Shown here: positions 28,357 to 30,105 of the stretch, piece after piece
Numbering within the stretch: position 1 is the first letter of the stretch
How the letters are laid out: the number at the start of each line of letters is the position of its first letter
Origin: a virus
Length of the DNA: 33,618 bases
Reading direction: 5' to 3' (one strand)
Virus record (IMG/VR): IMGVR_UViG_3300010396_000034
Location: 1-33,618 of that record
Program-made: the position numbers and the translations under genes
Notes under the pieces: generated by a model
What the model was told of the DNA's origin: nothing
Database searches by the model: none
The model's input: the letters and a program-made list of their open reading frames with translations, nothing else

Positions 28357-29417
28357 GCATAGGAAGTAGACTAGGTTCAGCACTTGGTGCTGGCATAAAT
28401 CAATTAGCAGACCTTAAATTAGCCCAATTAACAAAACAATATGAACAACAATCTGAACGATCTAATTTTGCTCGACAATGGGCTCCTTTATTGGGAAAGG
28501 ATACAGCTAACTTTTTAAGTAATCTTTCACCTGAAGAGCGTCAAAATGCGTTAGGTAATCTTGAGAATCTCACTGGTGCATTTCAGCAACCTCAACAACA
28601 AGGTAACTTAGCTGCACTTGCTCAACCATTTAATCAACAACAACCCAATCAAGAACAAAATATAGATAATGCTTTGAAGCAATACTTCGGACAACCACAA
28701 CGTAGTGAACAACAGTTTGCTCAAGAACAACCTGAACAACAAATGATGCAACCTCAAGAGCAACAACAATTGACTCCTGACCGAGCAAAAAACATTAAAC
28801 GTCTTTTGGAAACTCCTCAACAAAAAGCTGCACGAGAAAAACAAGAGTTTCAAGAACGACAATTAAATCTTAAAGAAACTAAACCATATGTAACTGCTCT
28901 TAAAGATAAAGAACATGCAGCTAGGGAAGCTAATTTAAGACTTAAAAGAATGGAAACTCTTATCGAAAAAGGTAATCTTCCTAATTCTGCAATATGGTCT
29001 GCATTATCAAAGCTTGAAAATGCTCCTTTTGTTAGTGGACTAACTGGTCCTGTAGCAGAACTTCTGAAGGGTGCAGTAAAATGGTGGCATACACCTGCTG
29101 ATACTGAAGAATTTGAAAAGCTTTCTAATGAGTTTGTAAAAAATGCGAAACAATATTTTGGCTCTAGAATAACTCAAAAAGAAGTTGAAATGTTTATGCA
29201 GACAGTGCCTACCCTTATGCAAACAGATGCTGGGAAAAAGAAATTAATAGAAAATATACGTTCACTTAATGAATTAGCAGAAATTGAAGCAAAAGCTGCA
29301 CGATCAATTATTAAAGAAAATGGTGGAATACCGCCAATTGATATTGAACAACAAGTTCAAGATAAAATTGGTAATAAACTTGATAAAGTTGCAAAGCAAT
29401 TTATTACAAGACAATAG
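28353..29417 (+). CDS. Glutamine-rich internal virion (ejection) protein candidate
   Basis: 354 residues, starting in an ATGA overlap. The N-terminus (MSIGSRLGSALGAGINQLADLKLAQLTKQYEQQ) begins with a small glycine-rich helix. Residues about 70-150 are extremely Q-rich (AFQQPQQQGNLAALAQPFNQQ, EQQMMQPQEQQQL). The C-terminal half is helical and charged (REKQEFQERQLNLKETK, FVKNAKQYFGSRITQKEVEMFMQTVP). Pairing with the glycine-zipper protein suggests a second ejection protein. There are no enzymatic motifs, so no wall-cutting domain is seen. Confidence 0.6.
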   Translation: MSIGSRLGSALGAGINQLADLKLAQLTKQYEQQSERSNFARQWAPLLGKDTANFLSNLSPEERQNALGNLENLTGAFQQPQQQGNLAALAQPFNQQQPNQEQNIDNALKQYFGQPQRSEQQFAQEQPEQQMMQPQEQQQLTPDRAKNIKRLLETPQQKAAREKQEFQERQLNLKETKPYVTALKDKEHAAREANLRLKRMETLIEKGNLPNSAIWSALSKLENAPFVSGLTGPVAELLKGAVKWWHTPADTEEFEKLSNEFVKNAKQYFGSRITQKEVEMFMQTVPTLMQTDAGKKKLIENIRSLNELAEIEAKAARSIIKENGGIPPIDIEQQVQDKIGNKLDKVAKQFITRQ

Positions 29418-29530
29418 ATAAGTATTCCAAATAAAATAGCTATATTTATCATAAAAAGGGTAGCATATATCCAAAGAATTACTGCTAAGGGTGTTGCTAC
29501 CATTTTTACTGTTTTTTCGAATGGTGTCAT
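29357..29530 (-). CDS. 57-residue membrane protein, antisense to the ejection gene end
   Basis: Site AAGGAATAAT before ATG 29530. Two hydrophobic segments: VATPLAVILWIYATLFMINIAI and FGILIYCLVINCFAT. The last 61 bases lie opposite the end of the 28353 gene. It is the last of a five-gene leftward cluster. Size and topology are holin-like, but no family is recognised. Confidence 0.5.
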   Translation of the reverse strand: MTPFEKTVKMVATPLAVILWIYATLFMINIAILFGILIYCLVINCFATLSSLLPILS

Positions 29531-29545
29531 ATTATTCCTTACATT

Positions 29546-29683
29546 TTACCATAAAATAAGCGGTAATATTATGAAAGTAATAGTAGCGCATACTATTGCC
29601 GCTAAAATTACTCTCCATGTAATACATCCATTAATACAATATATTTCAGGGCATTTAAATAAAATGCATTTAAACTTTCTCAT
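29546..29683 (-). CDS. 45-residue membrane protein
   Basis: Starts two bases after the stop of the previous micro-gene, sharing its AAGGAATAAT. It begins with a cysteine-rich cytoplasmic part (KCILFKCPEIYCINGC) and ends in one membrane helix (VILAAIVCATITFIILPLIL). The function is unknown. The tight coupling supports its being real. Confidence 0.5.
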   Translation of the reverse strand: MRKFKCILFKCPEIYCINGCITWRVILAAIVCATITFIILPLILW

Positions 29684-29684
29684 A

Positions 29685-29750
29685 TTATTCCTTATATAAT
29701 AGGAAGTGTACGATTAAACAAAGTAGTATTCCTGACGCTATTGAAAACAT
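29685..29750 (-). CDS. 21-residue membrane peptide
   Basis: Encodes MFSIASGILLCLIVHFLLYKE, almost entirely one membrane helix. Site AAAGGAAG precedes the ATG, and its own end contains the ribosome site of the next gene. It may be a true micro-protein or a translational leader. Confidence 0.45.
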   Translation of the reverse strand: MFSIASGILLCLIVHFLLYKE

Positions 29751-29762
29751 TGTATTCTTCCT

Positions 29763-29927
29763 TTATCTATTTTCTATATACCAACATTCATTATGTACAT
29801 CGTCTGTCGTATCTTTTCCGAACCAAGATACGATACCAAAATTTTCAATATTATCTGGGGTACCATCATGATCTATAAAAGGATTTTCATGCTGTCTACA
29901 ACAAAAGCATATTTTTTTATTTTCCAT
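29763..29927 (-). CDS. 54-residue cysteine/histidine protein
   Basis: I chose ATG 29927 because GAGGA stands upstream and it lies one base after the previous stop; an upstream in-frame ATG at 29969 lies inside the previous gene. The product has CFCCRQH near the N-terminus and a later HNECWY, a possible metal site, and is otherwise acidic (FIDHDGTPDNIENFG). The function is unknown. It is second in the leftward cluster. Confidence 0.6.
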   Translation of the reverse strand: MENKKICFCCRQHENPFIDHDGTPDNIENFGIVSWFGKDTTDDVHNECWYIENR

Positions 29928-29928
29928 G

Positions 29929-30105
29929 TCATTCCTCAAGTTCTTTATTTTCATTTCTTGCCTGACCATTTATCTCTTTCATTATCGCTCTCATAATCCA
30001 ACGACCCATTGTTATATTTTTAAGTGCCGCTAATACTCTAATTTGTTGATGTATTTCATGGCTTATATCAAAAGCCATTTGTTTACGTTTTTTATCATCT
30101 TTCAT
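29929..30105 (-). CDS. Ribbon-helix-helix repressor candidate
   Basis: 58 residues with AAGGAG upstream of ATG 30105. After a basic start (KDDKKRKQ) comes the RHH pattern: a strand MAFDIS, helix HEIHQQIRVLAALKNI, a turn, and helix TMGRWIMRAIMKEI. RHH proteins bind as dimers to short palindromes and often repress their own promoters. It is first in the leftward cluster, behind a promoter with overlapping palindromes. It could be a phage regulator or antitoxin-like protein. Confidence 0.7.
   Translation of the reverse strand: MKDDKKRKQMAFDISHEIHQQIRVLAALKNITMGRWIMRAIMKEINGQARNENKELEE

Follow-up and report, generated by a model that had tools for sequence, protein, structure and literature searches.

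An antisense island of five small genes with a putative RHH autorepressor, placed like the P22 immI/sieA locus, in an uncultivated podophage genome

In phage P22 (NC_002371), genes 7, 20 and 16, read on the plus strand, are followed by the minus-strand genes sieA, orf59a and mnt (immI) and then, again on the plus strand, by arc/ant (divergent from mnt) and the tailspike gene 9. SieA, a protein of 164 aa expressed from its own promoter and working from the prophage, prevents DNA injection by a second phage. In P22-like phages, the region between genes 16 and 9 is very variable, and most of it is not transcribed as part of the late message (PMC8022706). Autorepression of small phage genes is a feature of acr-aca operons, where steep early expression is followed by repression by Aca (PMC11065993). 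Here, we describe an island of small genes found in the same place as sieA in the genome of an uncultivated phage.

The window, i.e. the whole stretch of DNA analysed (33,618 bp), carries an exact direct terminal repeat of 123 bp (1-123 and 33496-33618), so that the record amounts to a complete, circular assembly of 33,495 bp. It is the complete genome, of about 33.5 kb, of an uncultivated short-tailed phage (podophage), with a podophage-type gene content (Table 1). The fibre genes located beyond the island contain S74 and C1q domains, and the one from 31546 on runs across the terminal repeat into 64-1920. No PF00589 integrase was found in the window and the phage therefore looks virulent. A sole tyrosine integrase was seen among 31 records, in G016 (24284-24784; the record of locus L064), and this relative may be temperate. 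No DNA relative or RHH relative was found among cultured phages, and two scans of bacterial/archaeal genomes returned no relative of p738 or of a 187-aa protein encoded antisense inside the head genes (17246-17809, minus strand). The latter looks secreted and possesses a glycine-rich C-terminal membrane region; of 30 other records, 14 encode a relative (28-69% identity). Elsewhere in the genome, two Erf-like annealing proteins encoded on opposite strands (5580-6257, minus; 7303-7956, plus) flank strong divergent promoters at 6970-7030.

Table 1. Positions of the features of the window that are discussed in the text.
Feature	Position	Strand	Basis or remark
Virus record IMGVR_UViG_3300010396_000034			33,618 bp
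TerL	11424-12794		
Portal	13224-15257		
Scaffold-like protein	18632-19375		
Major head protein	19713-20657		
p738, 738-aa virion protein, nozzle-like	24388-26604		phrog_3287
p241, 241-aa Gly-zipper protein, probable ejection protein	27631-28356	+	Gly-zipper matches below cut-off; role judged from position
p354, 354-aa probable ejection/internal virion protein	28353-29417	+	Placed after p738; kept in relatives; role judged from position only
TM57, membrane protein, 57 aa	29357-29530	-	Homologues in L019, L015, L003
Membrane peptide, 45 aa, N-terminal C-x4-C-x4-C	29546-29683	-	Motif family at island position
Single-span membrane peptide, 21 aa	29685-29750	-	Ribosome site, hydropathy
CH54, Cys/His protein, 54 aa	29763-29927	-	Homologues in same cassette of L005, L081
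RHH (Arc-like) repressor, 58 aa	29929-30105	-	Alignments, PHROG, AF2, Foldseek, pN<pS
Putative operator	30123-30136		Overlapping palindromes ATGTTAACAT (30123-30132) and TAACATGTTA (30127-30136) on the -10
Promoter	30123-30151	-	-35 TTGACA (30151-30146), 17-bp spacer, -10 TAACAT (30128-30123)

The island consists of five tandem minus-strand frames at 29357-30105, separated by 1, 12, 1 and 15 nt, each starting with an ATG behind an AAGG- or GAGG-type ribosome site. An initial annotation, made from the sequence, had announced five frames of 58, 54, 21, 45 and 57 aa at these coordinates, each with its ribosome site and the first four at most 12 bases apart, and all of this was found as described. 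The longest chain obtained in 3000 dinucleotide shuffles contained two frames and none reached three, which rules out a chance origin; scanning both strands of the remaining genome in 821-bp stretches also revealed no such chain. The whole island lies antisense between the probable ejection genes and the fibre genes. Its last frame, TM57, shares 61 bp with the end of the convergent rightward 354-aa gene, so that conservation of the C-terminal third of TM57 is confounded by this antisense coding sequence.

The first frame is predicted to be Arc-like in fold. Its PHROG matches are HicB-like/Arc-like, and its AF2 model (pLDDT 84) shows helices at 16-28 and 33-57, the N-terminal beta strand not being formed in the monomer. 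The best solved-structure match of this model in Foldseek was P22 Arc (1par, prob 0.99, E 0.059), and further matches were other RHH proteins. Predicted fold and length are those of the Arc/MetJ-type repressors (Arc, Mnt, CopG), and a strand followed by two helices, with an N-terminal strand expected to contact DNA, places the protein in the Arc/MetJ superfamily. In the alignment, Q9-N11-R13 of Arc lines up with an alternating Q9-x-A11-x-D13. A single-protein scan for the RHH gave no matches, whereas alignment scans returned RHH relatives. Phages with about 70% p738 identity encode an antisense RHH in the same place, 46-55% identical to that of the window, and pN is below pS (e.g. 0.24 vs 0.42-0.78 to loci L005/L004), indicating that this frame is conserved under purifying selection.

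The promoter of the island displays the perfect TTGACA reported by the initial annotation, a TG preceding the -10, and two palindromes which, also as reported, overlap TAACAT. This layout is common to most of 18 clade-1 relatives. A 12-bp core, with the consensus CTAACATGTTAG, was present in the 18 clade-1 loci at 7-9 bp after the -35, where it covers the start of the -10, and is a perfect palindrome in L081 and L003. The variant CTATCATGATAG, which departs from this consensus on both arms, was seen solely in the operators of L015 and L041, and no RHH other than those of these two phages has T instead of A11 in the DNA-facing beta strand (QMAFD to Q[MI]TFD); this two-arm change concerns two phages only and is possibly shared by descent. 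The clade-2 RHHs are characterised by the signature RKRLAxD[LIV]P, and TGTGTACACA was found in 11 of 21 clade-2 promoters versus none of 23 in clade 1, the corresponding figures for a TGTACAC or GTGTACA core being 16/21 and 0/23. A permutation of arm pairing over all clade-1 operators was not significant (P=0.28, 3 of the 18 cores being mis-anchored in the test), and the operator claim thus rests on column conservation, fixed spacing, the differences between subtypes and the one two-arm change. Taken together, these data point to a putative operator that is conserved and whose sequence differs between RHH subtypes. In agreement with the self-regulating signature proposed initially, a predicted RHH fold is associated with a subtype-specific putative operator over the -10, and autoregulation of the operon by the RHH is well supported at the sequence level. 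Other copies of the operator in the window were not in excess over chance, so a regulon is not supported. In L047 and L048, the -35 stands just 35 nt before the RHH ATG, and the RHH mRNA may therefore be leaderless there. The sole gene starting beyond the island promoter is p74, at 30301; a strong hairpin, CATAGCTCTCTG...CAGAGGGCTATG, devoid of a T tail, lies between the RHH promoter and this fibre side (30215-30245).

Relatives were collected by a p738-based scan, RHH-alignment scans and a p738-alignment scan (80 kept of 439 relatives). When distinct loci were chosen by p738 only, with at least 5.5 kb of sequence beyond it, an antisense RHH was present at the island place in 30 of the 37; further RHH-like frames were recognised there by eye in L076 and L095. 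Of 52 loci, 29 (0.8 expected by shuffling) have an SD-led gene of at least 30 aa beginning within 20 nt after the RHH, and in 19 of these 29 this next gene has a hydrophobic span (0.08 expected). As the 52 loci share ancestry and were selected in part by their RHH, these numbers are not independent trials. The genes behind the RHH are small, variable and often membrane-spanning, and are swapped between phages, even close relatives; in several relatives the RHH occurs with no detected partner. The conservation of the five frames, put forward in the initial annotation as a check, was thus only partial: the RHH is kept, but the set of five is not and the other genes are swapped. Across these relatives, the five-gene set is unique to the window phage and the architecture appears general.

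CH54, with its motif C-x2-C...ENP...H-x-E-C, probably binds zinc. Its homologues in the same cassette are 29% (L005) and 46% (L081) identical, and its prediction gave no reliable fold (pLDDT 39). The 21-aa peptide, for which no homologue was found, is the least certain of the five frames. A C-x4-C-x3/4-C motif followed by a membrane span is common to the 45-aa peptide and to island proteins of L047, L049, L089, L133 and L076, among which the window copy diverges most. TM57 is 58% identical to its homologue in L019 and appears to be under weak constraint outside the overlap (pN 0.28, pS 0.35). In four relatives, a zinc finger and a membrane span are fused behind the RHH (L069 16207-16764, L089 16215-16508, L101 16769-16999 and L102 15780-16010, all on the minus strand), whereas in the window the Cys/His and membrane proteins are encoded separately. 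An HNH homing-endonuclease-like gene lies between the RHH and the membrane gene in L019 (about 9966-10640, minus strand) and in L033 (about 8160-8940, plus strand).

Two of the three functions offered by the initial annotation fit less well. As a type II toxin-antitoxin-like module, the island would encode an RHH antitoxin with a small toxin, in line with the RHH as first gene, with autoregulation and with weak matches to Pfam ParD/HicB and to PHROG HicB-like antitoxins. However, the Pfam matches are below cut-off, no ParE, RelE, HicA or GNAT partner nor any other recognisable or conserved toxin was found, the partner genes vary widely and are absent from several relatives, and most RHHs have no C-terminal toxin-wrapping tail, so that we consider this module highly improbable. 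A lysis cassette, in which the RHH repressor would set the timing of membrane peptides acting as holins or single-gene lysis proteins, also appears improbable, if less so. Such a cassette would fill a gap, given that no endolysin or holin was recognised among the window proteins searched, that PF00959 and PF01510 are absent from all 31 related records and that the island offers several single-span peptides. Yet the island is on the strand opposite to the late genes under its own sigma70-type promoter, adjoins no recognised endolysin, and its contents are unconserved even among close relatives.

Exclusion, the third function proposed, is functionally the best interpretation, since the island has the place and orientation of the P22 sieA-mnt locus. 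We suggest, with a probability of about 0.47, that the island functions as an autorepressed cassette expressed in an early burst, and that its membrane products prevent injection by a second phage. The host RNA polymerase would read the minus-strand promoter once the DNA enters a repressor-free cell, and the RHH would be made in one early burst together with its small membrane and Cys/His partners. RHH dimers would then close the promoter by binding to the palindrome over its -10. The membrane peptides would settle in the inner membrane and, as P22 SieA does, block DNA injection by related phages via the ejection conduit. Closing the cell to competitors would be the simplest use of an early pulse of membrane peptides at this spot.

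The main rival, an Aca-like anti-defence or host-takeover role, does not differ in any regulatory feature: small proteins from an identical autorepressed early burst would counteract host defences or reshape the envelope instead of excluding phages. The layout of acr-aca operons is indeed alike, with one strong promoter driving an autorepressor and several small genes that change fast, and the island combines a putative operator on the promoter of its own candidate autorepressor with contents that swap between close relatives. On the other hand, its products are largely membrane peptides, which is unusual for anti-CRISPRs, and searches of the window set with PADLOC, PHROG and Pfam matched no family involved in defence or counter-defence; in particular, no anti-CRISPR gene or Acr homologue was detected in the island by these searches, Acrs being often orphans. 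Moreover, the RHH gene comes first, unlike aca, which is usually distal in acr-aca operons. We regard this role as rather unlikely.

The exclusion reading may be extended to the large uncultivated group to which the phage belongs, as a tentative and somewhat doubtful proposal: virulent podophages would use hypervariable membrane peptides of about 20-97 aa, unrelated to SieA, to keep competitors from injecting in the course of the lytic cycle, under an RHH autorepressor whose DNA specificity is re-set alongside its operator. If the exclusion reading is right, the P22 immI/sieA arrangement is not peculiar to temperate enterobacterial phages: unrelated podophages that seem virulent maintain a self-repressing locus for membrane peptides in the corresponding position, and many unstudied candidate exclusion proteins are encoded there. 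The RHH/operator pairs of the clade would further provide a natural set in which to study changes in DNA recognition by beta sheets.

Compared with described systems, the RHH forms its own sequence subfamily relative to the Arc/MetJ-type repressors, and its putative operator CTAACATGTTAG is unlike those of Arc and Mnt. Like the morons of lambdoid phages, the island is a self-contained transcription unit against the late operon; morons are sporadic, whereas the island is retained in most of the clade, in a phage devoid of integrase. Alignment of the window RHH profile with hhalign gave a Prob of 10% for Mnt and 4.5% for Arc, with no homology to the P22 locus beyond the RHH fold; no Pfam or PHROG match linked the island peptides, of 21-57 aa, to an exclusion protein such as the much longer SieA; the divergent arc and ant genes are absent and no antirepressor was found in the window. 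P22 is temperate and its SieA acts from the prophage, whereas the window phage has no lysogeny genes. In spite of this, immI and the island are both situated between the last ejection gene and a tail-fibre or spike gene, antisense to the late genes, the ejection role of p241 and p354 being judged from their position. Both have an RHH regulator at the promoter end, which in the window reads away from the fibre genes with a putative operator on its promoter; both have a membrane-protein gene convergent with an ejection gene, and both vary between relatives. The island would thus work like the P22 immI/sieA locus without being a member of it.
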